Below, piece after piece: positions 4,247 to 26,616 of a stretch of 64,000 bases of DNA (its first letter is position 1; every line of letters starts with the position of its first letter). A program made the position numbers and the translations under genes. Location: NCBI GenBank assembly GCA_037039685.1, contig JAWNGF010000007.1, forward strand, positions 1,054,001-1,118,000, read 5' to 3'. The notes under the pieces were generated by a model that saw only the letters and a list, made by a program, of their open reading frames with translations, was not told the origin of the DNA and searched no databases. The stretch is from Ceratobasidium sp. AG-K (lineage: Eukaryota; Basidiomycota; Agaricomycetes; Cantharellales; Ceratobasidiaceae).

Positions 4247-7200
4247 TCAGGAGAAACTACGTCTCCAGTGGGTGATTTGGAATGCCCAGGCGTGCTCCAC
4301 GGCATCCAGCTGCTTCTCGGATACTTTGATGGCGAGTCGGTCCCTGTATTTGCTCCAATGCAAACCACCATCGAGCGATGCGCCCAACAAGTTGATAACG
4401 TCTCCATCCCTGATAGGCAAGGGCTTTTCGATTACGAGTGTACCGTTCTTTGGCCGAGAGAGTGAAATAATGCAAGTTGTGGTCAGAGTCCTAGTGAATC
4501 GTAGGTCCCCCTCATCCGAACCGAAGAAATTATAGTCCTTGGTCAAAAATTAGTCCTTTGAACCTGGGCACCGGTAGTTCCTACTCACAGTCCCATATAC
4601 GCAATCCCCCGAATGTTTTAACCACCTTCCAACCTCCAACACTCGGTCAACCATGGGCTTAATGATGCGGCCGGTTCGAGTCGGACCGAGGTTGAGAAGG
4701 CTAAAGAGATTTTAGTTTCGTCGAGAATGCCTAGCGTCCGAAACTCACTAGTTTCCGTTCTTGGAGGTAATGTCTACCAGGGTATGGATGATCTTCTCAG
4801 CAGACCTGTATTCTTCATCCTTGGTTTCCCAATTGTAACCATAGCACACCCTACTGCTGCGTTAGCAAGACCCAGCTGTCGTGCCGGGGAAACTTACGGA
4901 TCAATACCCTCGCTGGTCTCCCATTTCTGCGCTTGGATCGAGCGGAATTTTGTATACTCGGGGGTATCAAAGTCAGGGATAGCCCCACAACGGTTGTTCA
5001 TCGTCACTTCTCTGCCAGCCCCCGTTGCTGCGTTATACCATTCAGCCGCAAACTCGAGAGTTCTGTTGGGACCGCCAATATCGCACCACTAGTAACGTGG
5101 AAACGTTTGGGTAATTTTTCATTTATAGCAGACAAATAGAAACATACCATTATCTCAGTCTCATAGGTATGAGCCAAAGTTCTCATGTGGGCGAGTTGAA
5201 TGTCGCGTAAATAGTCTTTTCCTTCAATCCTCCCAGTATAGGGCTCAACCTTTGATTGGTTGTACGCATTTCGAGCCAAGTGACCGGGGAATGTTCCGAA
5301 ACCATAAGGACCAGCGTCGGGATTGAACCTGCACGAAAAAGGTATGAGTAACGCTTCTCAAAGTACATTAGTTGAAGCTGTACCATTCCGGCATAGAATA
5401 ATAGGTCCCTCGACGCATTTCGGGATGTTCAGTGCGGGCTGCATGCATGAGCTCCGCGACAAAATCACGTTTGGGCCCCAAATAGACAGAGCTTCGGTGA
5501 GTCGTATTCCCCGTGTCAAACAGGCTGAAACCTTCATGATGTTTCTGTCCCGTTTCAGCAGGTAAATGTCGTTGCACTGATAGACGAACTCGACGAGGCA
5601 CTGACCGTCACCAAACTACAGCCAGAACAAGTTTAGAGTGGATTTGCTTTATCAGGGTCGCACTCACACAAAGTATTTCGCTCCAGCGTCGAGAACAATT
5701 GGATCCACTCGCTAGCGTTAAACTCGGACGCGGTGAAGTCGGGAATGAAGTCGTCTGAGCATCAATAATTAGATTCGACTTAGCCAGCTCATCCAGGAAA
5801 TTCACCGTATACAACATCCTAGTCATAGCCCTCGTTAGATATGATGTTTTCAGAAACGATGGACTACCTCTCCGTAGCGCTCTTTATGATATTCCACAAA
5901 ATGTTCTGTGGCCCAGGTGGGTTATGTAACCACCATCTACACAATTAGCCAACAAGCCGCTCGAAAAGGGAGGATACTCACTGATACCAGGCAGCATAGT
6001 AACCTTTGGGGGACTGTTCCAAACGCGCAGGTGTTCAGTTTAGTTATTCAAAATATCGTACGCTTGTTATTTACCCAGGCAGGCACAGAATAAATACCCC
6101 AGTGGATGCTGTTAGTCCAGTTAGAACCGTAAATGATTGGAAGATCTTGGCCTGGGTAAGATCACTTACAAGATTCCAAACTTGGCGTCATCCCACCACA
6201 ACGGGGTTTCATGCCGTTCCAGACTTTCTTTCGATTCCTCGTACGGTGGGACTCCAGCAATCATCGGCCAGTCGTCCGAAGCAATAATTGTTTGATCAGA
6301 TGCTTCAGAAATACTGTGAACTTCAATGTACGCCTTCCCTGGGGTCCCAGCTCGAACTCCGTCAAAATTGCGGACCCAAACTCGCACTTTGGTTTCATCA
6401 CCAGGCATCAGCCGTGGGACCTCTCCATGTTTGACAGTGTACATGTCCTTGCTGTGGACCCAGACATGTATTTTCTCAGCCCAGCATAGATGATTAGCAC
6501 TGGCGGGAGTTGGTCGCATGTTGGCCAGAGTAACTTCTACAAGCTGTGCCCCTGCCAGGTCTTGTGGATTTCCTAGTCGGTCGAATGCTTCATAAAGTTT
6601 GCTGGTGGTGCGTGCTCGTCGAACAATGACTCGCGGCCCCGGGGAAGGTGGTATAGCGCCCAGCGCGACCTGTCCATCGAACGAAGCGACAGAATGAGAC
6701 TCGCATCCCGCTATCAATCCCGCGGGAACAATATTCAGCGCAAATAGATGGAAGCGATTGTAAGAGCCTCTAGACGGCAAAGTAATCGAACGGAGAGGAG
6801 AATGGGTACGCAAAGCAGTGGACCAGTGGTGTATTTGAGTCAGATTATGGTTTATCGATTTGCCGTAGTTAGTTGTGTGGTAGGGGCTATGATACAGTTG
6901 ACCGTCTGGCTGCCGGTGCATATCACATTGACTTACGATCGTATAACACCCCTGTTAAGCCAATGGAGAGTCCACCAGTTTTTGGCGCTCACTAATGACC
7001 TCTTCCATTAATGCACATCAAAACTGAAGAAACCCTTACTCACGCTCTACCTCTTGTTCACTGCCATCCTCGTACTTGAACCGAAACCTGGCACCCGTTT
7101 CACCTGAAAATCGAAATCTTGACTTTCTTCATAGTTAGGGAGTTGAATTACTAAATACCATTATTATAATCACCGGCGTAAAGGACGTGGATTTCTCTAA

Positions 7201-8576: not shown

Positions 8577-10302
8577 CTAGATCCTCAACTCTCTAAACCC
8601 ACGTACGTCCAATCGACCAGCCCCATTATCCAACCACTCGCCCGTACCCAAGTCCCGCACCTTGCCGGCGTCCCGATACGCTTTGGTCGCTGACCGGGTC
8701 TCGCGCTTTGCAGGTGTCGTCGGCGTCGAATTCGACTTGGATGCTTTAGACGCGACCGCTGCGACTTTTGTCGAGCCGAAGCCTTGGCCGACACCGGTGC
8801 CTTGGCTCGCGTCTTGCCCACGCTCGCTCGCGCCGCTTTGGACTTGGGAACTCCGAGCGACTTGCGCTGTCGTTTTGTCAACTTTTCCGGCTCCGGTTCG
8901 GGCTCGGGTGGGGGAGGGGGTGGTGCATCAGAGATGAACGACTCGGCCGAGGCGGATACGCCCGTCGACTCGGCGCCTTCGCCGTCATCGTCCTCATCCT
9001 CCAATGCGTGCCGTGTGATCGTCCCCCGGCGTCCGCGCTTCCGGCCCTCGTCTTCCTCCTCATCGTCCTCGTCTATCGCGCGTTTCGGACTTCGAGAGGG
9101 TGGGGGTGGAGATGGACTGGAGGATTCGGGGGTAGGTTGTTGTGTCGTGGGTTGTTTGCGTGAGGATTTAGCGGGTTTGGATGGTGGTGGTGAAGGTAGG
9201 GAGGACGTTTCGGGTTCGGGGACTTCGCGGACACTAGGGGGGGCCTGTGTGAGGGCCGGCAAGGTTTCGTACGGATGAAAAGTGCTCCCAGTCGTGGTAT
9301 CTGCCATGTGGTTAGGCGGCGTCAAGTGGTGGATGGCGTGGGGAGACATACGCAACGTAGACCGTTGCGGGAAATGGGTCGCTCCCGCCAGAGTCGTCAT
9401 CATCGTCGTCGTCTTCGTCGTCGTCCTTCTCTTCCGACTTTTTCTTCATCCGCTCTTTCCGCGCTTTCCGTCTCTCCTTGGAAGTCATTTCCTCTCCGAC
9501 CACTGTACTCGCACCCGCCGCACATCCGCTCGCCCCACCAACCTCCGTCTTGGACCCCTCGATGACATAGACTAGACCAGGTTGGACGACTTTAACATTG
9601 ACAACCTTGAGTTGTGCAAATGCAGTCAACTCCAAATGGCCGCCATAAGTTCCGCTCTTGCTCATTGTCGAAATATGTTGATCCCAACTTCGGTCATCAT
9701 CGACAAACGCCTCAAACCGAGACTTGTGCGCAGCCATATAGGCACATATTTCCTGCCGTAAGGGCAAATGTTTGTCGGCGGTGCCGTACATCTGTTCAAT
9801 CGACAAAGGTGGGTTGAATGGGCCCAGGAAACAAGACCGAACATTACCTGGTCACTCAGCGCACGGAACAAACAGTTTCCGTCGCCTAGCGTAGGCGCCG
9901 CGTAGAGACCCATAGCGCGGAGCTGGGCGGTGAGTTCGGCGGTGTTGGTTGCGGGATCATGGAGCTACGTCAGGTAGCAGCGTGGCCGGAAGCAAATTCC
10001 AGATCGAGTCGTCAGCGATGATGACCAGCGCAGCTTGTGTGTTGAGTAAGACTTACCTTTCCGCGCTGTCCGCGGGTGCGTGGGCGAGCTGCAATCACGG
10101 GAAAAAGTCAGCACTTGTTGGTCGGTGCGCAAGCCACGCTGCCTTATCCGACAGGCGGGGTCGGAGTCGGCGGGGTCAACGGCGACGATGACGACGACGA
10201 CTGGAGCGGTGATGGCGGCTGAAATGGCGGCGGAGAGTGCTTACATGCATTCACCGGAACTCTTCCTCTCCTCTCCTTCCTTATGGTGTTGCCTTTGGCC
10301 AT
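8577..10302 (-). CDS. OTU-domain cysteine protease (OTUD3-like deubiquitinase), frameshifted twice
   Basis: Predicted ubiquitin-specific cysteine protease. Start ATG 10302 (MAKGNTIRKERRGR), then a basic stretch RPRTRGQRGK. The OTU core is AELTAQLRAMGLYAAPTLGD followed by GNCLFRALSDQ: the catalytic Cys is in GDGNC. MYGTADKHLPLRQEICAYM, GTYGGHLELTAFAQLKVVN and the catalytic His in VYVA|YHDWEHFSSVRNLAG follow, the last across an intron. Downstream is a long acidic and basic low-complexity tail (poly-Asp/Glu, KERRKARKERMKKK, many Pro/Ser), ending TGEWLDNGAGRLDVRGFREL and a stop at 8577. Two one-base frame changes are needed: a run of seven C (9237-9243) after GPHTGPP reads as one C too many, and near 8776 one G appears to be missing. 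The protease core up to the His is unaffected. Confidence 0.85.
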
Positions 10303-12730: not shown

Positions 12731-14105
12731 AATTGTTTTTGCCAAATTTCCTTTCCACCGCCAACCTCAATGTAGTAACTATGACAAACACATTAACTAC
12801 CTGATATGTACATAGGTAGACAGCGACCAGCACAGGAAAAATCACTGAAAACGGACATATTCAGTGACTTTCTTCAGCGCACATTGCACTTAATCTGACG
12901 CATACAGGCCGCTTTTCAGTGCTAAAAGCGCTGAGTGTTCAGCTTCAAGGTTACTGAACCAGGGTGCTGGATTTCAACGCTTCTAGGCTACACAGTGCAA
13001 TGTGAGACATCGATTCGTGAACGGGCTTGGCTATCGCTGAAAGCTTACGGTAAGATCGCTATTGTGCGAGAAAGAATGCACTCCAGCTAGGATATGAAAA
13101 ATTTTGTCCACCAATGTCAAGCCAAATGCACACATTCGTACTTTCATTCCACTCATACCGCACCAACCATTGCCTTGTACTGGCGGGTTGCAATTTCCGG
13201 ATGCCCGGTGCACCCGATTCGAGTGTCCCGAGCTCGGGCGAGGCATGTAATTTGAGTAGGCACCTATGCCCTCTCCTATCTCTTTGACCAAAGATCATGT
13301 CCCAGGGCAGCATCCCACTCGGTGAATCGGTTCAATTGCAGCGCTCGATGCGTGAACCCCGTCCTTGTAAATTACATGCCTTCACACATCCATATTCACG
13401 AATCTATTTCCCAGGACCCGTCACAAAGTAATTGATAAGGGAAGAACGCACGGCGATGGCTATTTGAATATCATCTGACAACATGGTGGTCATGATCGTC
13501 TTGGACCATTTGATTGACGGACATTCAGGGCGGGACCGAAACCGATCCGGAGCGCCACATCGAAGTGTTCCTTACCCCTGCGACGATCGGGATCGACAAG
13601 AGAGGAAGATCCTTGGGTGAGCGCCCCAATAGACCGTCAACCAGACTCGGGACAAAAAAGCGAAAGGGGCAGTAGGCTGACGGCATGGTGCCATGGAGAA
13701 GGTGCAGCCATTGGTCGGCGCATATGGGTGGAGCGTGGATTGGCCACCAGAACAATGCTTGTGTCAACGGACTCGAGGGTGTTGAACGTGTAGCGAAGCC
13801 TGCTCATAGTAATCGATTGAACTACCATGATGACATCTCACCTAGTGACGGGAATTGTCGCGAACATTTCCAGCACAACTTGGCCTTCTGCTTTTGGCGA
13901 TGTTACGTGATAGGCACCCTATACCGGTTTGTGCACAGATCTGCACGTGGGACGAACGATCTTGCCCTCTGACAACGACCTGTGAGCAAAGGCCGACGAG
14001 CACCAAGATCAATCGAATCGAATAGCCGAGTGACAATGGAGATTGAAATAATTGTGCGTTGCAGTCTGATATGTCTATGGTGTTTGCTGAGATGTGATTT
14101 CGCAG
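12731..14105. other. No supported gene; short palindromes; possible 5' part of the microexon gene
   Basis: There is an 8-bp perfect hairpin around 12850-12875 (tcactgaa and ttcagtga) and a second repeat of the same motif near 12915-12950. I searched for the exon-intron signature seen downstream. Possible acceptors and donors exist (for example a 33-nt frame between an acceptor near 13876 and gtgata at 13909), but none forms a consistent chain. The first exon and start codon of the downstream gene are probably hidden here. The minus frame 13842-14198 looks accidental. Confidence 0.35.
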
Positions 14106-15623
14106 TGGGTGCGCTAGACGACGTATAGCCATGACGAGTGTTGATGAATCATTTCCTGCACGCCTGTCAGGTTGAAGGCAGAGATTCTGTGAGTGCATCC
14201 CTTCGTTGCTGCTGCTTTCCGGTGATTCCTGTGGCTCAATGATCCGCCGTCACCCTAGTCTGTGGGTACACCGCGTCGGCTTTAATCACCAAGCACAACG
14301 CTGACCTTGCGAACGCCGACACGGCAATACGAACATGACTGGAAACCGACTGCTATTTCACTTGTGACTACAAGGTGTGCCGGTTCCGTCCCTCAACCGA
14401 GCATGCTGCTGACCATCACTGGAACTGTCGATGAACCATTGGGCTTGCCTCGAACGGTCACACGCATCCAGGGGGTACGTGTCCTTCGTGCCGACCGAGG
14501 CATGACTCTGACGGGCAAATTACATCGATTGGTCTGGCCTCTGATGCGTGACCTTGACTATGACAGAGCGTGCGTACCTCGACTGCTGAGCGGACTAGAG
14601 CTGACTAGGACTACACTCGCCGTTGCCAACGACTGAACCCGTTTCTTGCGCACTGTACCGTTACCAGGATGTAAGTGATGTCTTATGGGACACAGGGCAG
14701 CTGATCAGTGTATGGATTTATCGTGCGCGTGCTCGCTGCCCTCCCGCGGCGTTCGATAACATCAGACTGTATGTCGGAGTTACTTAGTACAGTGGAGATC
14801 ATGCTAATCAGTATAACAATGATGGGATTTGATTGTTCTACGGGTCGAACCTCATTTGCTTCCACGTAATCAAGTGGGTTAGTGCGCGTGATGGATATGG
14901 AGCTGCCGGAAGTAATTTACTTATGTGGTTCCATTACCATTGTTCTAGACTGTGAGTAACGTTGCATCGACATGATGTCGTTATTAGCTGACTGGGCATT
15001 CAAACGACCACAGTGGGTGGGTTCCTTCACCAGAAGGCATGGATGAGGCGTGCTAACAAGCAGGCAACGTGCGACCTCTTAGACGATAGATGAAGAAAGG
15101 GTGAGTCACTGCGCTTTGTGGGCGAATGGCCAGATGCCGACAGTCCATACTTGCGGTATCGAAACTTGGCGATAACAGAAAGTGAGTGCCACTTCAGAAA
15201 CCGAAAAGCGTGCACTAAAGTGGCCCACGGGTCGTATTTGATTGATGGGTATCGACGCTCCAGTATGTAAGTAGACAAGAGATGTAGATGCGCGAAGCTC
15301 GACTGACAGGAGTTACAAATTGGACGAAGGAGGCGAGTAGAATGCGGCTGCCTGGTGGGACTGAGATAGGAGTTGAGCTCATTGGTAAAATAATAGATTG
15401 TGAGTAGAACCGAGAAGAACCACGCGCCATGAGGCTGAGATCTTTTCTATTGCTGGCAGACAGTACGTTGGCTAGTAGTAGCCGTGATGTGAATACGTGG
15501 GAACAAACAATGACACTCGACTCTTGGTTTGTAGAAAGCGAGTGGGGATCTATGATCAAACGAGAATGATGATGCTAACCAATGCGGTGCATTTTTGGAC
15601 CTGACGCTTCACTATGACTTTAG
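14106..15623 (+). other. Tract of single-codon (3-nt) exons, 5' part
   Basis: Fourteen three-base exons lie between splice-like signals: TGG 14106, TCT 14259, GGG 14472, AGC 14567, GAT 14668, ACT 14766, TGG 14875, ACT 14949, TGG 15014, AAA 15179, TAT 15264, ATT 15397, ACA 15460, AAA 15535. Thirteen are preceded by YAG, one by AAG. Donors are mostly GTRNGT; the last is GCGAGT. Two longer exons of exactly 18 nt (14171-14188, VEGRDS; 15083-15100, TIDEER) keep frame. Intervening introns are 60-130 nt with branch-point-like CTGAC/CTAAC motifs. One interval (14262-14471) probably hides one unit and another (15267-15396) may do so. None of the three-base exons is a stop codon. I infer these are exons of the kinase gene downstream; no transcript evidence is available. 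Confidence 0.6.
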
Positions 15624-18600
15624 GGAGTACGTATGAATCTGTGATCGCAGGAGGACGATGGTGCTGACTAATGCGGCGCATTTCTGCACCTGATGCTCGT
15701 CGTCGCTGCTGTCTGACGCTTCACTACGAGAATAGTATGTACGTATGAATCTGTGATCGCAGGAGGACGATGGTGCTGACTAATGCGGCGCATTTCTGCA
15801 CCTGATGCTCGTCGTCGCTGCCGTCTGACGCTTCACTACGAGAATAGTATGTACGTATGAATCTGTGATCGCAGGAGGACGATGGTGCTGACTAATGCGG
15901 CGCATTTCTGCACCTGATGCTCGTCGTCGCTGCCGTCTGACGCTTCACTACGAGAATAGTATGTACGTATGAATCTGTGATCGCAGGAGGACGATGGTGC
16001 TGACTAATGCGGCGCATTTTCTGCACCTGATGCTCGTCGTCGCTGCCGTCTGACGCTTCACTATGACTTTAGCGAGTACGTATGAATCTGTGATCGCAGG
16101 AGGACGATGGTGCTGACTAATGCGGCGCATTTCTGCACCTGATGCTCGTCGTCGCTGCCGTCTGACGCTTCACTATGACTTTAGCTTGTACGTATGAATC
16201 TGTGATCGCACGAGGATGATGGTGCTGACTAATGCGGCGCATTTCTGCACCTGATGCTCGTCGTCGCTGCCGTCTGACCCTTCACTATGACTTTAGACCG
16301 TACGTATGAATCTGTGATCGCACGAGGATGATGGTGCTGACTAATGCGGCGCATTTCTGCACCTGATGCTCGTCGTCGCTGCCGTCTGACGCTTCACTAC
16401 GAGATTAGCGGGTACGTATGAATCTGTGATCGCACGAGGACGATGGTGCTGACTAATGCGGCGCATTTCTGCACCTGATGCTCGTCGTCGCTGCCGTCTG
16501 ACGCTTCACTACGAGAATAGTATGTACGTATGAATCTGTGATCGCAGGAGGACGATGGTGCTGACTAATGCGGCGCATTTCTGCACCTGATGCTCGTCGT
16601 CGCTGCCGTCTGACGCTTCACTATGACTTTAGGTTGTACGTATGAATCTGTGATCGCAGGAGGACGATGGTGCTGACTAATGCGGCGCATTTCTGCACCT
16701 GATGCTCGTCGTCGCTGCCGTCTGACGCTTCACTACGAGAATAGTATGTACGTATGAATCTGTGATCGCAGGAGGACGATGGTGCTGACTAATGCGGCGC
16801 ATTTCTGCACCTGATGCTCGTCGTCGCTGCCGTCTGACGCTTCACTATGACTTTAGCGAGTACGTATGAATCTGTGATCGCAGGAGGACGATGGTGCTGA
16901 CTAATGCGGCGCATTTCTGCACCTGATGCTCGTCGTCGCTGCCGTCTGACGCTTCACTACGAGATTAGGATGTACGTATGAATCTGTGATCGCAGGAGGA
17001 CGATGGTGCTGACTAATGCGGCGCATTTCTGCACCTGATGCTCGTCGTCGCTGCCGTCTGACGCTTCACTACGAGATTAGTATGTACGTACGAATCTGTG
17101 ATCGCAGGAGGACGATGGTGCTGACTAATGCGGCGCATTTCTGCACCTGATGCTCGTCGTCGCTGCCGTCTGACGCTTCACTATGACTTTAGGGAGTACG
17201 TATGAATCTGTGATCGCAGGAGGACGATGGTGCTGACTAATGCGGCGCATTTCTGCACCTGATGCTCGTCGTCGCTGCCGTCTGACGCTTCACTATGACT
17301 TTAGGGAGTACGTATTAATCTGTGATCGCAGGAGGACGATGGTGCTGACTAATGCGGCGCATTTCTGCACCTGATGCTCGTCGTCGCTGCCGTCTGACGC
17401 TTCACTACGAGAATAGTATGTACGTATGAATCTGTGATCGCAGGAGGACGATGGTGCTGACTAATGCGGCGCATTTCTGCACCTGATGCTCGTCGTCGCT
17501 GCCGTCTGACGCTTCACTACGAGAATAGTATGTACGTATGAATCTGTGATCGCAGGAGGACGATGGTGCTGACTAATGCGGCGCATTTCTGCACCTGATG
17601 CTCGTCGTCGCTGCCGTCTGACGCTTCACTACGAGAATAGTATGTACGTATGAATCTGTGATCGCAGGAGGACGATGGTGCTGACTAATGCGGCGCATTT
17701 CTGCACCTGATGCTCGTCGTCGCTGCCGTCTGACGCTTCACTACGAGAATAGTATGTACGTATGAATCTGTGATCGCAGGAGGACGATGGTGCTGACTAA
17801 TGCGGCGCATTTCTGCACCTGATGCTCGTCGTCGCTGCCGTCTGACGCTTCACTATGACTTTAGGGAGTACGTATGAATCTGTGATCGTAGGAGGACGAT
17901 GGTGCTGACTAATAATGCGGCGCATTTCTGCACCTGATGCTCGTCGTCGCTGCCGTCTGACGCTTCACTATGACTTTAGGTTGTACGTATTAATCTGTGA
18001 TCGCAGGAGGACGATGGTGCTGACTAATGCGGCGCATTTCTGCACCTGATGCTCGTCGTCGCTGCCGTCTGACGCTTCACTATGACTTTAGGTTGTACGT
18101 ATGAATCTGTGATCGCAGGAGGACGATGGTGCTGACTAATGCGGCGCATTTCTGCACCTGATGCTCGTCGTCGCTGCCGTCTGACGCTTCACTATGACTT
18201 TAGGGAGTACGTATGAATCTGTGATCGCAGGAGGACGATGGTGCTGACTAATGCGGCGCATTTCTGCACCTGATGCTCGTCGTCGCTGCCGTCTGACGCT
18301 TCACTACGAGAATAGTATGTACGTATGAATCTGTGATCGCAGGAGGACGATGGTGCTGACTAATGCGGCGCATTTCTGCACCTGATGCTCGTCGTCGCTG
18401 CCGTCTGACGCTTCACTATGACTTTAGCGAGTACGTATGAATCTGTGATCGCAGGAGGACGATGGTGCTGACTAATGCGGCGCATTTCTGCACCTGATGC
18501 TCGTCGTCGCTGCCGTCTGACGCTTCACTATGACTTTAGGGAGTACGTATGAATCTGTGATCGCAGGAGGACGATGGTGCTGACTAATGCGGCGCATTTC

Positions 18601-19662
18601 TGCACCTGATGCTCGTCGTCGCTGCCGTCTGACGCTTCACTACGAGATTAGGATGTACGTATGAATCTGTGATCGCAGGAGGACGATGGTGCTGACTAAT
18701 GCGGCGCATTTCTGCACCTGATGCTCGTCGTCGCTGCCGTCTGACGCTTCACTATGACTTTAGCGAGTACGTATGAATCTGTGATCGTAGGAGGACGATG
18801 GTGCTGACTAATGCGGCGCATTTCTGCACCTGATGCTCGTCGTCGCTGCCGTCTGACGCTTCACTATGACTTTAGGTTGTACGTATTAATCTGTGATCGC
18901 AGGAGGACGATGGTGCTGACTAATGCGGCGCATTTCTGCACCTGATGCTCGTCGTCGCTGCCGTCTGACGCTTCACTACGAGATTAGGTTGTACGTATGA
19001 ATCTGTGATCGCAGGAGGACGATGGTGCTGACTAATGCGGCGCATTTCTGCACCTGATGCTCGTCGTCGCTGCCGTCTGACGCTTCACTACGAGATTAGG
19101 ATGTACGTATGAATCTGTGATCGCAGGAGGACGATGGTGCTGACTAATGCGGCGCATTTCTGCACCTGATGCTCGTCGTCGCTGCCGTCTGACGCTTCAC
19201 TACGAGAATAGTATGTACGTATGAATCTGTGATCGCAGGAGGACGATGGTGCTGACTAATGCGGCGCATTTCTGCACCTGATGCTCGTCGTCGCTGCCGT
19301 CTGACGCTTCACTATGACTTTAGGGAGTACGTATGAATCTGTGATCGTAGGAGGACGATGGTGCTGACTAATGCGGCGCATTTCTGCACCTGATGCTCGT
19401 CGTCGCTGCCGTCTGACGCTTCACTATGACTTTAGGTTGTACGTATTAATCTGTGATCGCAGGAGGACGATGGTGCTGACTAATGCGGCGCATTTCTGCA
19501 CCTGATGCTCGTCGTCGCTGCCGTCTGACGCTTCACTACGAGATTAGGTTGTACGTATGAATCTGTGATCGCAGGAGGACGATGGTGCTGACTAATGCGG
19601 CGCATTTCTGCACCTGATGCTCGTCGTCGCTGCCGTCTGACGCTTCACTACGAGATTAGGAT
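15624..19662 (+). repeat. 112-bp tandem array: 37 single-codon exons separated by near-identical 109-nt introns
   Basis: Thirty-six units of 112 bp, with only 4 extra bases in total (one near 16018, three near 17911). The constant part begins gtacgtatgaatctgtgatc (5' splice consensus GTACGT) and contains gctgactaatg and later gtctgacgct, both branch-point-like. It ends in one of three 3' ends: tatgactttag, tacgagaatag or tacgagattag. The only strongly variable part is the three bases between that AG and the next GTACGT: TAT, GGA, GTT, CGA, GAT, CGG, CTT or ACC. Read as codons, these give Tyr 12, Gly 7, Val 7, Arg 5, Asp 4, Leu 1, Thr 1. The tacgagaatag end occurs only before TAT. A block with the variants gatcgtagg and gtattaatc recurs (about 17880, 18790, 19350), indicating higher-order duplication. 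Confidence 0.9.
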
Positions 19663-20514
19663 GTACGTATCAATCTGTGATCGCACGAGGATGATGGTGC
19701 TGACTCAAAACTTTCTTTCAATCACCTATGCTTTGCTCAGACTGTGCGTGAAGCCTGACTACTACGTCCTACCTACTGTTAATTCTACCAATTTTTCTCC
19801 CTGATTAGCTTGTCAGTGTCTCAAGGATTCATTTCCGCCCAGCCACTTATTCTACGAGCTTACTCTTCTCTCCTCCTAGGATGTGAGCCCTTAACTCGTG
19901 GTGTTATTGGCCGTTATTTCTCTCGTGCTAACAATCACGTTTCCCCCCAGGAGGCTCGTTATATTCTTATTTATTATTTTAGTGGAGTCTTACTTCCTTA
20001 TAGGCTGTGAGTTCTCGAGCCATTATTACTTCTCATGCGATCCCTCTAACATGTCCCATCCCTTACAGAAGGTATGCATTATATCCCTCTTACTTCTCTT
20101 ATGAATCAACTTCAACTCACAAATCTGTAGAATGTGAGCAACCGTTCCTCGACACTCTTCGGTTTACGTTCTGACCTGCGTACATCCAGAATGTATGTCA
20201 CGTGACTCTCGATTTTGATCCACTTGTCGATTGCTCCTGAATCGCATGTCACTTCCAGGCCGTAGGAATCCTTCATTGACGCTGACGATTGCTACACTAA
20301 ACAAATGTTGCTTTACGAACAGGTGGTACGCTCCCGTTGGTTGCGACAGCTCGTTTTATTGTTGACAACAACTCTCATACACCACTAGAAAGTTGGTACT
20401 GCTGCTATCGATCACTTCCTGGCCCTACTGATCCTGGACTCATCCCGTCCCTCATAGGATGTGAGTTGCCGGGCGCACTGAGCCTTTCATCGCTTACAAT
20501 GTCTCGTCCCCAAG
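19663..20514 (+). other. Tract of single-codon exons, 3' part
   Basis: The pattern continues past the array with diverged introns. Three-base exons: ACT 19741, CTT 19809, GAT 19880, GAG 19951, GCT 20004, AAG 20069, AAT 20131, AAT 20190, GCC 20259, GTG 20323, AAA 20389, GAT 20458. Every one is preceded by YAG (ctcag, attag, cctag, cccag, tatag, tacag, tgtag, tccag, tccag, aacag, actag, catag). Donors include gtgcgt, gtgagt, gtatgt and one GC donor (gctcgt). Introns are 50-78 nt, several with perfect CTAAC branch points (near 19928 and 20046). The last intron (from 20461) leads into the first ordinary exon of the kinase gene. Confidence 0.6.
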
Positions 20515-22631
20515 TTTTTACGAAGAAACCCCACCATGACTCTGAACGAGGTTCGTTCACATTCCCCACTGATTACGCAATGGCCTCGCGGTGGTCCGTA
20601 CTCGCCATACTTCGTCGACACGATCCACAACGATCTTAATATCAATTTGGTATTATTGGCTACTTGCATACTTATACCATTATTCCTGTCATTGCCGTAG
20701 AACAAGACCGGATTCATCCCACTCACCAAGCCCGAGGTGTTGATCTCATCTCAACAAAGTCAATATGTAAGCTTCATTTGCCTAATGGGTGACTATTTCT
20801 CAATCAATTGGCCCCCAGAAGCACAACCAAGTGGATCCGGAACAAAATAACCAACATGTAGAGGACTCCGGAGCCCAGCCGGTTGTGTCAGGCAATACAC
20901 CTCTAACCCTACAGGCCGACTCGCCAGATCATCGTCGTGGGAAAAGCGATGCCTTCAAGCGCGGAAGTTTGGTGAGTTCTGAATGGTGCACTTTCCTCGA
21001 CCATCTCATTTACCCCTTACCGTCCATATCTAGGGCGAGGACGCCAAGACAGTCGCTTCACATAGTGAATCAGTTCTCGCCTTGAATGAAGCAAACGCCA
21101 CTGATAAGCTCATTGAAGTGAAGGAGAGGGTAAGTAGATCTGTATCTGGGACGAATATCAATTTTACTGGCAGCTGCATAGATGGGACAGACGGCAGCGG
21201 TACGAGGGCCCGGAAATCCCACTAGGCTACCCGTGATCACCCGCGAGATGGAAAGCCTAACCTTCAGCAAGACTATTCTTACTCGTCACTTATGAACCCG
21301 TCTGTAGCCCATCTCCGAAGTGCTCAAGCTCCTTAGTGCCCATGGATGCGAAATCGTCACAGATCAGCTTGATGTGTCCAACTTTAGTGAGTACCCCATC
21401 TCGGCAGGTGGATATGGGGATGTATACAGGGGTGCCTTTCACAATGGGAGTCGGGTCGCAGTCAAGTGCCTGCGGCTGCATATGGACTCGACCGAAGAAT
21501 CCAAGAAGCAGCTCAAGGTGAGATCTGTCTGCGCCCCGAGTTAACCCGTCTGATCATTAGCACAGCGTGCTGCCAGGGAGATGTACGTGTGGTCGAAGTG
21601 CAATCACCCCAACGTATTGGGTTTGATCGGAGTAGCTCAATACCGAAATCAGATCGCCATGGTGTCGCCATGGATGGAATATGGTAACATACGGCGTGCG
21701 CTGACCCTGCAACCTCAAGTTGATCGCTACGAACTGGTAAGGTGGGTCGAATCGGACATAGGGCGATTCCTGAACCTATTCAAAAAGTGTGCCCAAGTCG
21801 CGGAAGGAGTTGTATACTTGCACGGCGTTGGAGTCGTGAGTGACTATCAAATTGTGCTCGGGTACTTGCTCAAGCTTCCTGGCGCATAGATCCACGGGGA
21901 TCTTAAAGGCGTAGGGATACATATTTTTGATCCATTGACGCTTGGATGCACTAATACCTGAACTACTTTATCGTAGGACAATATTCTAGTTTCAAGCGAT
22001 CTCGTCCCTAAGCTCACAGACTTTGGCAATGCCGCGCTGAGAGAATATACGCTGCAGTTCTCGAACACAACCAGCAGGGCCGGCACTTCACTCAACTGGG
22101 TGGTAAGCCCAACATCACCCATCGCCAATCGCTGATATACTGAGCCCACGACAGGCTCCCGAGGTGCTAGGGGAGGAAACGGAGCTAAGTGTCGAAGCCG
22201 ATGTGTATTCGCTCGGAATGGTGCGTCTACAGTACACAAACTGAAGTGACTGTTTTGACAGAGGCCGTTCTTAGACTATCCTTGTATGTCTCGCGAAGTT
22301 GTCTTAGCGCTAAGCCGACCTCTGATGGTCTGAATAGGAAGTCATCACTGGGGCGATTCCGTACGCTGGTATGCGGGAGTTTATTATCGTGAAGAAAATT
22401 ACAAGCGGTGTGTATCCTATGCGACCCGAAGAACAAATACCCTCGAATGTCCACCATGCCGACCTTCTGTGGTCTCTTCTTACAAGTTGCTGGACATACG
22501 CTGCTCAGGATCGCCCAACTCCCACCCAAGTACTGGATAAGGTTAGTATATGCGCATCTATGGGGGATACGATCTCACTTATATTTCCATAGATGAGGGA
22601 GATTATCTTGGAAAGGGAAGGGGGGAACTAA
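20515..22631 (+). CDS. Protein kinase (TKL/tyrosine-kinase-like fold), catalytic part of the microexon gene
   Basis: Exons: 20515-20649, 20701-20766, 20819-20971, 21034-21129, 21182-21199, 21308-21517, 21566-21736, 21788-21835, 21890-21910, 21977-22102, 22155-22220, 22338-22541, 22593-22631. All thirteen are multiples of three and all introns are phase 0. The N-terminal linker is polar (MTLNEVRSHSPLITQ, KHNQVDPEQNNQHVED). Kinase motifs: glycine loop ISAGGYGDVYRGAF, VAVKCLRL lysine, CNHPNVLGLIGVAQ, MEYGN hinge, IHGDLKGDN catalytic loop (HGD instead of HRD), DFGNA, NWVAPEVLG, EADVYSLGMEVITGAIPYAG, QDRPTPTQVLDK. It ends ILEREGGN. All catalytic residues are present. An ATG at 20536 could serve as a conventional start, but the splice pattern upstream argues for a longer protein. 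A degenerate relative lies at 62.9-64 kb. Confidence 0.85.
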
Positions 22632-23937: not shown

Positions 23938-26616
23938 CTAAATCATTCCCATACCAGCTACAAAACCGGGAAACTTGACACGGCCAAGTGGCTTGGTAAG
24001 CACGTCAGCGACTTGCTGATCGGTTGGGATGAACTGGAGATCGACTTCACGAAGCTCAATTACTTCGCAAATAAAATGGTATTTCACTCGTATATGCTTG
24101 GTGTTCTGGTGGTTGACGGGGTTCTTGGCAAGTGCGATGCTCGATTGGTTGTCGGTGAGCAACGTAGTTGGACCGTCGGACAAAAATCCGAGCTCGGCAA
24201 GGAACTGACGCAGCCAAAGAAGCTGGCGTGCAGCGCTCGCAGCGGCAACGTATTCGGCCTCGGTACTTGAAAGCAAAACGGTGGGTTGTTTTCGCAATGA
24301 CCAAGCGATAGCGCCTCCGGCGATTTGGAAAACCCAGCCGGTAGTCAATCGGCTCGTGTTCGGATCGCCAGCGTAGTCAGAGTTGACGTAGCCGCTGAGG
24401 TTTGACGGCTTGGAGCGATCGAATACGATCCCGAGCGCCCTAGTGCCTTGTAGGTACCGCAGCACACGCTTGAATGCCGACCAATGTTTGTCGCCAGGAT
24501 TTGCGGCATGCCGTGCGAGCAATCCAGTCGCGAAACCGATGTCGGGGCGAGTCGAGATCATCGCATACATGAGCAATCCGACGCCACGTTGATAGAGGGT
24601 TCAATCGATGGTCGGAGATTCGAGTTTGGGAAGGTTAGGCAACTCTGCCATCGGCGTGTCGCATGATTTGGACTTGGACATGCTGAAACGAGCGAGTATA
24701 TTGTTAATATAGCGTTTTTGGCATATCTTGAGAGTTCCGGCAGTTCGATTGCGTTCGATTTCGACTCCTACAAACATTCGGGCTTCGCCTAGATCGACAA
24801 TATCAAATGATTTGCGCAATTTCGACTTGATCAACTCGAGAAAAGAAAGGGGTTTGCCGGCGAGCAGCATATTGTTGACGTGGGCTAGGATGATTGCCAG
24901 GTTATTGCCGTCGCGTGAAATGAAAACGGCGTGGTCGGATTCGGTCCGGGTAAAGCCAATTCCCTCGAGTACCTCCTTGAGTTGCAAGTAAAACGCTTGC
25001 GCAGCCTGTTTCAGCCCGTAGAGTGCCTTAACAAGCTGCCAGACGTGATCGCCATTGACGAAACCTTCAGGTTGCTCCATATAGAGCTCCTCTTCGATAA
25101 CGCCGTGGAGAAACGCGGTCTTGATGTCCATTTGAAGTAGTTCGAGGTCTTCGCTCGCGACAATGCTAAAAAGTACCCTATATGCGTCTGCAGCGGCGAC
25201 GGGCGGCGAGATTTCGACGTAGTCGGTGCCTGGGGCCTGTAAGAAACCTTTTGTGACGAGTTGGGCCTTGTACTTGACGATTTCGCCATCGACGCCACGC
25301 TTGTATGCGTACACCCATTGACATTTGATGACCTTCTTGTGGGTAGGTCTCTTGGCCGGCTTCCAGACCTTGTGCTCAGTTATCAACTTGATTTCTTTGA
25401 CCATGGCTTTGAGCCATAGGTTGGCATTGGGTCGTGCCATCGCCTTGTTGTAGGACTCGGGTGGTAGCTGGATAGACGCGTCAAAAGCGCTCTTGCTCAT
25501 GGGTCTATCTGCTCGCATGGCAAATTTGTTCTGGGCGCCCACTTTGGCTCTGTAGTGTACAGGCGGCCTGGTGACTCAATTCAAACAACGTGGCAGCTCT
25601 AGATGGACTAGCTCTGGCTCTGGCTCGATGGGTGGCTTGCTAGGTGGCTTTTGCATGGTTCCAGGCTTGATTGGCTTGACTTCTTGTTTGTTTGGATGCT
25701 CTTGGGGCTTTGGCTCTGGCTTGGTGACCTTGGGCAATGACTCAACGTGTTCTTGATTGCCCACTTGCTCTAGGAATGGGGCGTCTTTGTTGTGCTCAAT
25801 GACCACACGTTGACGCGTCAAGAATCCCTTGTCAAAGACAACATCACACAAAGTGATTATGCGACCAGTTGGCCGTTGAACAAGTATATGCGCCTTACAG
25901 TTTGGCGCAAAGCCAAGGTAATTGCATTCAATTGATTGAGCTTTGAGCTTGGTGCGTTGATCATCAGGTACTTGTGCCCATGCTTTGCAGCCAAAGGTGC
26001 GGAGTCAGGATACATTGGGTGCCTTGCCTGTGAATATCTTGTTGGGAGTCTTGCCATTGAGCAATTGCTTTGGCGTAACGTTCCAGATATGGGCTGCGTG
26101 GAGAACTGCAAAGCCCCAGTACTTATCTGATAAGTCTGAGTTGGCTTGCATTGCCCGTTGACTGTTGTTGATTGTCCAAATTGCCTGTTTGGCAATGCCA
26201 TTACTTGCTGAGGAATTTGCCTTGGTCCTCTGGTGCTGAATCCCATGTGACTGCAGCCATGCTTGGAAAGCAGCTGAGCCATATTTGCCTCCGCCATTGG
26301 TACGTAGGTGTTTTACTCTCTTGCCTGTGAGGTTTTTGATTGACGTTTTCAACTCCTTGAAACAGGGTACGTATTTGCTCTTTTCCCTCAGTAAGTGCAC
26401 AAAAATTTTGCGCAACTTATTGTCAATGGTGACAGCAAAATACTTGACACCTTGGATAGCTTGGAGTGGAATTGGGCCGTGGAGGTTGCTATGGAGCAAC
26501 TCAAGAACCTCAGACGCATGGTTTTCGGATGTAGGAAAGGGGGATTGGGTGTGCTTGCCTTTCAGGCATGGTTTGCATTTCGATTTTGGCAGTAAGCGGC
26601 TTCCGATTATGTCCAT
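23938..26616 (-). pseudogene. Copia pol: integrase, reverse transcriptase, RNase H (inactive)
   Basis: Integrase frame (26005-26616): CKPCLKGKHTQSPF, HSNLHGPIP (normally HSDLHGP) and RTNGGGKYG (normally RTDGGGE). Reverse transcriptase (24601-25542): WLKAMVKEI, KCQWVYAYKRGVDGEI, MDIKTAFLHGVIEEELYM, LVKALYGLKQA, and the catalytic box as HVNNMLL where YVDDML is expected. An in-frame TGA at about 24602 separates it from the RNase H part (23938-24576), which has STRPDIGFATGLLARH, SSTEAEYVAAASAARQLLWL and TDNQSSIALAKNPVNHQ. Loss of acidic catalytic residues in both enzymes, always GAY to AAY, shows the element cannot replicate unaided. The integrase N-terminal region is interrupted by the gypsy insertion. 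Confidence 0.9.

Follow-up and report, generated by a model that had tools for sequence, protein, structure and literature searches.

A predicted protein kinase gene of Ceratobasidium sp. AG-K with more than sixty single-codon exons, many of them in a tandem array of intron-plus-codon units

Background

Exon definition is hardly feasible for very small exons, and genes that carry such exons raise the question of how they are joined. Single cases have been described, such as a 1-nt exon in APC11 of Arabidopsis (PMC4674806) and a 3-bp exon in homothorax of Drosophila (PMC7392893), whereas the micro-exon genes of schistosomes are outlined as having exons of 6-36 bp that make up about 80% of the coding region (PMC5825161). 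The closest described system is that of the truffle Tuber melanosporum, whose nank genes, encoding NLR proteins with NACHT and ankyrin (ANK) domains, are summarised in later papers as containing dozens of 3-bp mini-exons (Iotti et al. 2012, as cited in PMC4986451, PMC3689799, PMC9815663 and PMC10197012); according to the same summaries, the mini-exons are alternatively spliced and are thought to diversify the C-terminal recognition domain. The repeat arrays of fungal NLR genes are likewise outlined as combining high internal conservation with few hypervariable positions (PMC4986451, PMC9815663). Here we describe a protein kinase gene of the basidiomycete Ceratobasidium sp. AG-K whose first ~95 residues, a tandem array included, are very probably encoded almost one codon per exon, as judged from genomic sequence. 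The stretch analysed, hereafter the window, comprises 64,000 nucleotides (positions 1054001-1118000 of contig JAWNGF010000007.1, here C7) of the 53.6-Mb, 17-contig assembly GCA_037039685.1.

Results and discussion

A tract of predicted single-codon exons leads in frame into a kinase domain

The gene model derived for the plus strand of the window consists of 81 exons, 64 of them of 3 nt, all exon lengths being divisible by three and all junctions in phase 0. It forms a single frame of 519 residues, from the ATG at 14036 through the kinase domain to the sole stop at 22629-22631. The 80 introns of the model range from 48 to 210 nt (median 96.5), 34 of them being of exactly 109 nt, and the coding share of the interval 14036-20550 is only 282 of 6515 bases. 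There are 18 exons before the array, 37 within it and 12 three-base exons after it, followed by one exon of 36 nt, one of 66 nt and a further 12 up to the stop. Outside the array the exon calls rest on an alignment of six close loci of the same genome. The spliced N-terminal segment is predicted to read MEIEIIWVEGRDSSGSDTWTWTIDEERKYEITK, then the array residues, then TLDEAKNNAVKDFLRRNPTMTLNE, and the predicted peptide spans the micro-exon junctions TLDEAKNNAVKDFLR. An earlier, 510-residue version of the model matched the Pfam kinase domain PK_Tyr_Ser-Thr (PF07714) with an E value of 2.4e-39 (135.7 bits, against a cut-off of 23.1); six families in all reached E ≤ 1 in the Pfam scan of this version, mostly kinase or kinase-like, with no NACHT and no ankyrin. 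We take the kinase to be TKL-like.

Strict YAG-N3-GTRNGT sites outside the array numbered 15 (11 before and 4 after it), whereas 500 dinucleotide shuffles yielded 0.126 on average and never more than 2. When exon lengths from 0 to 40 were scanned with the strict sites, a peak was seen at length 3 alone, other lengths giving 0-2 sites before and 0-1 after the array; the remaining 57.4 kb of the window contained five length-3 sites, inside the range of the other lengths (0-8). Over the entire window, AG-N3-GTRNGT occurred 62 times on the plus strand versus 4 on the minus strand. A chance origin of the pattern was rejected on the basis of the shuffles and the length scan.

These results bear out most of a preliminary description of the tract, made from the letters of the window, which had proposed a run of more than sixty single-codon exons over about 6.4 kb leading into a kinase gene whose exons are all multiples of three; its 15 strict sites, for which it had estimated a chance expectation of ~0.3, were recovered. 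Its counts needed adjustment in places: 37 units in the array and 12 after it were found as described, but there are 15 three-base exons before the array rather than 14, and the 25 exons with a YAG acceptor belong to a total of 27 outside the array rather than 26, the two others (14875 and 15330) having AAG. The gene also begins upstream of the interval described (14106-20514), with the ATG exon at 14036, and because three 18-nt exons (14036-14053, 14171-14188 and 15083-15100) are interspersed, the tract is not purely one of single codons. None of the triplets is a stop codon, which holds for 64 as it had for the 63 originally listed; taken alone this is weak evidence, since the absence of stops among the 65 distinct site-codon states of the six aligned rows has a chance of 0.044. 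Three donors are GC (15330, 15535 and 19951) and further donors are weak.

Residues are conserved between deep paralogs with saturated introns

The same design precedes two less closely related kinase genes, at C7:2.30 Mb (L037) and C7:0.83-0.84 Mb (L036+L038), where the array has a period of 109. In a scan of lengths 0-15 with a slightly looser donor, both genes showed a peak at 3, with 14 sites before and 9 after the array in each and 0-2 sites at other lengths, and this peak was absent from five control stretches scanned in the same way. A further kinase relative, L035, lacks the micro-exon tract across 8.5 kb (one loose match, no strict one).

Outside the array, 30 introns of the window could be paired by position with those of L037, and their interior identity was 0.617, the same as that of shuffled introns (0.617); despite this saturation, intron lengths are often alike (52/52, 62/60, 50/50). 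The residue is nevertheless identical in 16 of 27 single-codon exons, in order, a value that none of 50000 reorderings attained. Across the full set of 51 aligned codons, the proportion of synonymous differences (pS) was 0.74 and that of nonsynonymous differences (pN) 0.28. Read in the two wrong phases, the window sequence has 4 and 7 stops and that of L037 has 3 and 4. In L036+L038 the residues run W-R-G-D-P-E-W-T-W-(N)-D-Y-T-V-R-K and T-P-D-R-A-K-N-D-A-V-Q-H. We consider the conservation of residues under saturated introns to be the decisive evidence that the predicted triplets are codons. The comparison of eight loci of this genome supports a gene with more than 60 single-codon exons that lead in frame into a kinase.

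Among the kinase homologs, 80 of 83 carry the name Rhizoctonia or Ceratobasidium. Two homologs without introns cover the linker and the kinase, namely P0001, with 411 residues on a contig of 1539 nt, and P0003, with 421 residues on a contig of 1707 nt; these contigs are presumably transcripts. Both agree with the kinase exon joins of the model, including a 9-nt exon at 22275-22283 (T-I-L, also T-I-L in P0003 and T-M-L in P0001). P0003 starts with M-N-H-F-L-D-G-H-P, at a place where the last three micro-exons of the window encode V-K-D and those of the genomic copies encode V/L/M, K/Q/R and D/H. Retention of the intron before the 36-nt exon would instead give P-K-F-L or S-Q-F-L in the eight genomic copies; because H before F is impossible from an AG-ending intron, the M-N-H of P0003 supports micro-exon splicing in this relative. 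A reading of the tract as a single long intron was rejected in view of the deep residue conservation and of the M-N-H of P0003 as compared with the retained-intron readings.

The array varies more at the codon than in the intron

Tandem Repeats Finder delimited the array at 15601..19705 on the plus strand, with a period of 112 and 36.6 copies. It contains 37 AG-N3-GTACGT units spaced by 112 (34 times), 113 and 115 bases with none missing between, each of about 112 bp (a 109-nt intron and a 3-nt exon), the first exon lying at 15624-15626 and the last at 19660-19662; the residues predicted from them are GYYYRLTRYVYRDYGGYYYYGVVGYRGDRVVDYGVVD. In five arrays measured, of which C3a and C3b are near-duplicates, nucleotide diversity (pi) was 0.51-0.71 at the exon bases, 7 to 28 times the average over intron positions (0.023-0.095). 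In C7b and C3b the sites that vary most within the unit are precisely the three exon bases; in the window array the bases at -9, -6 and -5 reach 0.52, on par with the third exon base (0.51), and in the L037 array a single intron site (+65) reaches 0.69. The five arrays have 37, 26, 17, 24 and 20 strict units, and two loci on contig C5 that are split into halves have 5+1 and 3+4.

Because neutral drift or gene conversion alone would equalise codon and intron, we infer from the diversity ratio that selection maintains codon diversity while units exchange. A plain non-coding satellite was rejected, given that the units keep AG and GT and that the codon is among their most variable sites.

Within the L037 array, exons resembling those after the array (CCT, ACT) are present a second time, at L037:5860-5937 and 6677-6762, a sign of larger duplications taking in the array edges.

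Close copies in the genome keep the splice dinucleotides outside the array

When the array was used as query against the genome, further arrays were found at C7:2.38 Mb and at C3:2.61-2.62 and 5.61 Mb, with pieces at C5:2.12-2.16 and 2.28-2.29 Mb. The 5' and 3' flanks each matched six places, which we read as six close loci, the two on C5 being split; their halves were paired by order and strand. Over 31 tract exons in the six rows, GT or GC is kept after 31/31 and AG before all 30 that have an acceptor, in 6/6 rows. All 122 of the 122 splice-dinucleotide columns are thus invariant, compared with 73.1% of intron-interior columns before the array and 78.5% after it. Alignment gaps fall in introns only, with zero in exons, and the donor changes are mostly A<->G at +3 or +4. 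These rows amount to about four lineages and are not independent tests, as both pairs, that on C3 and that on C5, consist of near-duplicates.

The loci at C3:2.61-2.62 Mb and C3:5.61 Mb are near-identical copies in opposite orientation whose array units differ in order and in number (17 vs 24), and the array therefore seems to change fast relative to its flanks. Three of the eight loci appear to be interrupted within the array (C5:2.276-2.292 Mb, C5:2.119-2.155 Mb and C7:0.832-0.839 Mb). The content of the insertion was examined only for C5:2.276-2.292 Mb (L017, L019, L020): it is of about 15.7 kb and has a pair of 425-bp direct repeats of 98.6% identity about 6.5 kb apart, resembling long terminal repeats.

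Observations that weigh against a single-codon coding tract

Several observations count against the interpretation of the tract as coding exons joined in order. Among the close copies, the columns of the 3-nt exons are 71-72% invariant, no better than those of introns (73-79%), and pN is about equal to pS, so conservation is visible only in the deep comparison; this comparison in turn represents one deep lineage and not two, because L037 and L036+L038 are 91% identical across 821 post-array bases. Poor donors are present (GCTCGT, GTAGGA), and CTRAY branch sites at 8-48 nt from the intron 3' end are enriched but not universal: of 30 introns each, 10 in the window and 14 in L037 have one, against expectations of 4.0 and 4.6. 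In the three irregular array units that were examined, the acceptor was lost in two (C7b and C3a) and one unit was shortened (C7b); a unit without acceptor would presumably drop out without loss of frame. As for proteins, P0003 covers three micro-exon residues only, and P0001 is uninformative on the tract because its first residues are the MTL of the 36-nt exon. No protein carrying the remainder of the N-terminal segment was found: the search with this region of a 473-residue model gave 7 candidates, none at E ≤ 1, and the search with an alignment of five N-termini gave 7370 candidates, none at E ≤ 10.

The N-terminal segment gave one match in Pfam, with an E value of 0.15 and below the cut-off, and its best match by sequence in PDB was a tail tube protein (E 0.035), which is not informative. 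The segment might conceivably resemble part of a C2 domain.

How the codons could be joined, and alternatives

For the 1-nt exon of Arabidopsis, intron definition with successive removal of the introns has been argued (PMC4674806). We regard a similar explanation as very probable here, with the tract introns of 50-112 nt (apart from one stretch of 210 nt) each recognised by intron definition and removed successively; the 3-nt exons would then need no recognition as exons, because the introns are removed individually. Since all lengths are multiples of three and all junctions are in phase 0, a micro-exon can be lost or gained without a shift of frame. The centre of the tract would be a recombining array of intron-plus-codon units, in which near-identical introns permit duplication, loss and reordering of units, each event adding, removing or swapping one N-terminal residue (17 to 37 units in the five measured arrays), while the codon would be held diverse by selection. 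All units would be joined into one mRNA, and the N-terminal segment may form a recognition surface or loop that regulates the kinase, its function probably being that of a hypervariable recognition segment.

A different use of the same exons, which overlaps with their joining into a single mRNA and which we regard as quite possible though somewhat short of an even chance, is that they are alternatively included cassettes, as in the Tuber NACHT-ANK genes, giving mRNAs with differing subsets of codons. With 64 exons of 3 nt in phase 0 any subset would stay in frame, the truffle precedent is itself described in later papers as alternative splicing of 3-bp mini-exons, and it is reasonable to suppose that, with splice sites as alike as those of the array, one neighbour would hardly be preferred over another. 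The flanking micro-exons, however, spell a conserved continuous peptide, which suggests that they at least are constitutively included.

The 210-nt intron before the array contains an AG that abuts a GT (14373-14376); the pair is present in 6/6 close loci and reads CAG/GTGGGT in L037 and AAG/GTGGGT in L036+L038. A missing exon was sought in this 210-nt gap, which lies where another micro-exon might be expected, and the AG/GT site alone was found. The junction at 14374/14375 is probably a zero-length exon, that is, a recursive splice site. Such a site, with no exon bases at all, would fit an explanation in which the AG-N3-GT units are recursive stepping stones for the removal of a 6.4-kb intron, leaving a mature mRNA with few or no codons of the tract, and both recursive splicing and intron definition have been put forward to account for very small exons generally (PMC4674806). 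We find this improbable, considering that stepping stones need not keep codons, yet pS is 0.74 vs a pN of 0.28 under saturated introns, that P0003 has M-N-H ahead of the 36-nt exon, and that this exon is in frame from its acceptor while its internal ATG is lost in C7b.

Least probable, to the point of being very doubtful, is a decaying or non-coding tract whose pattern arose as a side effect of an ancient array of duplicated introns, with a working kinase made from the ATG at 20536: what we take to be a good start context around it (CCACCATGA), the prediction of P0001 from the homologous M, the apparent interruption of the array by insertions in three of eight loci and the lack of a purifying signal at 3-nt exons among close copies are outweighed by the retention of all splice dinucleotides in 6/6 close loci, the presence of the same exons in the deep paralogs and the TTG that C7b has in place of this ATG.

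A kinase start at 20536 was also rejected as such, given the TTG of C7b and the fact that the 36-nt exon continues the reading frame from its splice site onwards. The seven codons from the splice site to this ATG are in frame; between the window and C7b both changed codons are synonymous, and there is one amino-acid replacement each in the C3 copies and in C5d.

Going beyond the joining of single codons in order, we would raise as a tentative possibility that the array is a DNA device for diversifying a receptor residue by residue. Homogenised introns would serve as recombination handles, and unequal exchange would insert, delete and swap codons without frame errors, producing a recognition segment of tens of residues, rich in Tyr, Gly, Arg and Asp or Ser, on a self/non-self kinase, perhaps with alternative splicing in addition; the flanking 3-nt exons would be old array units that became fixed.

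Course of the gene along the window

All exons lie on the plus strand, and those before the array were placed by the alignment of the close loci. The first coding exon (14036..14053, 18 nt, donor GTGCGT) contains the ATG and encodes MEIEII; it is aligned in the six close loci, reads MEIKIV in L037 and has an ATG exon as counterpart in L036+L038. It is followed by TGG (W, 14106..14108), with AG and GT in 6/6 close loci and TGG also in L037 and L036+L038, by the 18-nt exon VEGRDS (14171..14188), by TCT (S, 14259..14261) and by the candidate zero-length exon at 14373..14376. Next are GGG (G, 14472..14474), an exon supported by L037 as well, then AGC (S, 14567..14569), GAT (D, 14668..14670) and ACT (T, 14766..14768). 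The exon TGG (W, 14875..14877), with AAG as its acceptor, has further support from the deep paralogs, and the exons ACT (T, 14949..14951) and TGG (W, 15014..15016) from L037. The 18-nt exon TIDEER (15083..15100) corresponds to a 3-nt exon in the deep paralogs. Before the array there are then AAA (K, 15179..15181), TAT (Y, 15264..15266, supported also by L037), GAG (E, 15330..15332, with GC donor and AAG acceptor), ATT (I, 15397..15399, supported also by L037), ACA (T, 15460..15462) and AAA (K, 15535..15537, with GC donor).

After the array, each three-base exon is supported by the close loci and by L037: ACT (T, 19741..19743), CTT (L, 19809..19811, donor GTCAGT), GAT (D, 19880..19882), GAG (E, 19951..19953, donor GCTCGT, for which L037 has GAA with donor GTAAGT), GCT (A, 20004..20006), AAG (K, 20069..20071), AAT (N, 20131..20133), AAT (N, 20190..20192) and GCC (A, 20259..20261, donor GTAGGA). 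The last three are GTG (V, 20323..20325; L or M in close copies, M in P0003), AAA (K, 20389..20391; Q or R in close copies, N in P0003) and GAT (D, 20458..20460; H in the C3 copies, in L036 and in P0003). The 36-nt exon (20515..20550) encodes FLRRNPTMTLNE, in frame from its splice site and with an inner ATG at 20536 that is not conserved; the 66-nt exon (20701..20766) encodes NKTGFIPLTKPEVLISSQQSQY and is homologous in P0001. The final 12 exons (20819..22631), supported by Pfam, P0001 and P0003, encode the linker and the kinase domain up to the stop.

In the kinase linker, 21251-21307 is an apparent GA-AG intron (GAAAGC...TGTAG), across which P0001 and P0003 join REM straight to S/P; its GAAAGT/GAAAGC donor is kept across the six close copies. 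Immediately before it, between linker and kinase, the window has a segment (21115-21250, EVKER / MGQTAAVRGPGNP) similar to the C-terminal end of P0001 (EVKERMGQVVAARGSGNP); the five other copies in the alignment lack this segment, as do P0001 and P0003 at that place, and it looks as if two kinase genes had recombined. The first part of the kinase domain has at least 193 tblastn matches in this genome (150 of 323 candidates scored); many genes are matched twice, which means fewer genes than matches, yet a large kinase family.

Among the neighbours of the gene there are pieces of a Copia-type element downstream of it on the minus strand (24601-26616), with matches to RVT_2 (E 3e-61, 24601-25542) and to an integrase core (E 1e-8, 26005-26616), and an open frame on the minus strand (9312-9806) that matches an OTU-like cysteine protease (E 2e-8).

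Significance and comparison with known systems

If the single-codon tract is translated as predicted, it would be a second fungal family with dozens of one-codon exons, in another phylum and another class of protein, and would point to convergent micro-exon arrays for rapid diversification. It would also be an extreme natural test of the minimal exon that the spliceosome can join in order, with 64 per transcript besides the zero-length one, and the combination of conserved introns and hypervariable exon suggests a mechanism acting at the DNA level. Such a tract would probably escape the usual gene-finding and read-alignment programs, so that the true N-termini of these kinases may be absent from annotation. 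The annotation of Rhizoctonia solani AG8 is described as having used a TopHat microexon search (PMC4014442), which may or may not detect 3-nt exons, and long Iso-Seq RNA reads are reported to exist for R. solani AG-8 (PMC12774589). Among the literature matches listed, as titles and abstract beginnings, there was no kinase, Rhizoctonia or Ceratobasidium gene with arrays of 3-nt exons.

As described, APC11 and homothorax have in common with the window gene exons too small for exon definition, but with one per gene vs 64. The schistosome genes, as outlined, share runs of short exons with lengths that are multiples of three, whereas in the window gene most exons are of 3 nt (64 of 81) and exons of up to 36 nt account for 312 of 1560 coding nt. 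Like the arrays described for fungal NLR genes, the array of the window is an internally conserved repeat of variable length with few hypervariable codon positions, but the unit there is coding (WD, ANK, TPR), whereas here it is a 109-nt intron and one codon, and the codon alone would reach the protein. The preliminary description had known of no described gene with this structure, a claim that the reports of dozens of 3-bp mini-exons in the truffle NACHT-ANK genes overturn. The Tuber nank genes, in the form in which later papers summarise them, are similarly a fungal family with tens of one-codon exons in a segment thought to diversify. They differ in being ascomycete NLR genes with NACHT and ankyrin domains, the window gene being a basidiomycete kinase with no NACHT or ankyrin matches, in having the mini-exons at the C-terminal domain rather than N-terminal to a kinase, and in obtaining diversity by alternative splicing, whereas that of the window gene is visible in the DNA array itself. 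The family described here works like the Tuber nank system and is not a member of it.

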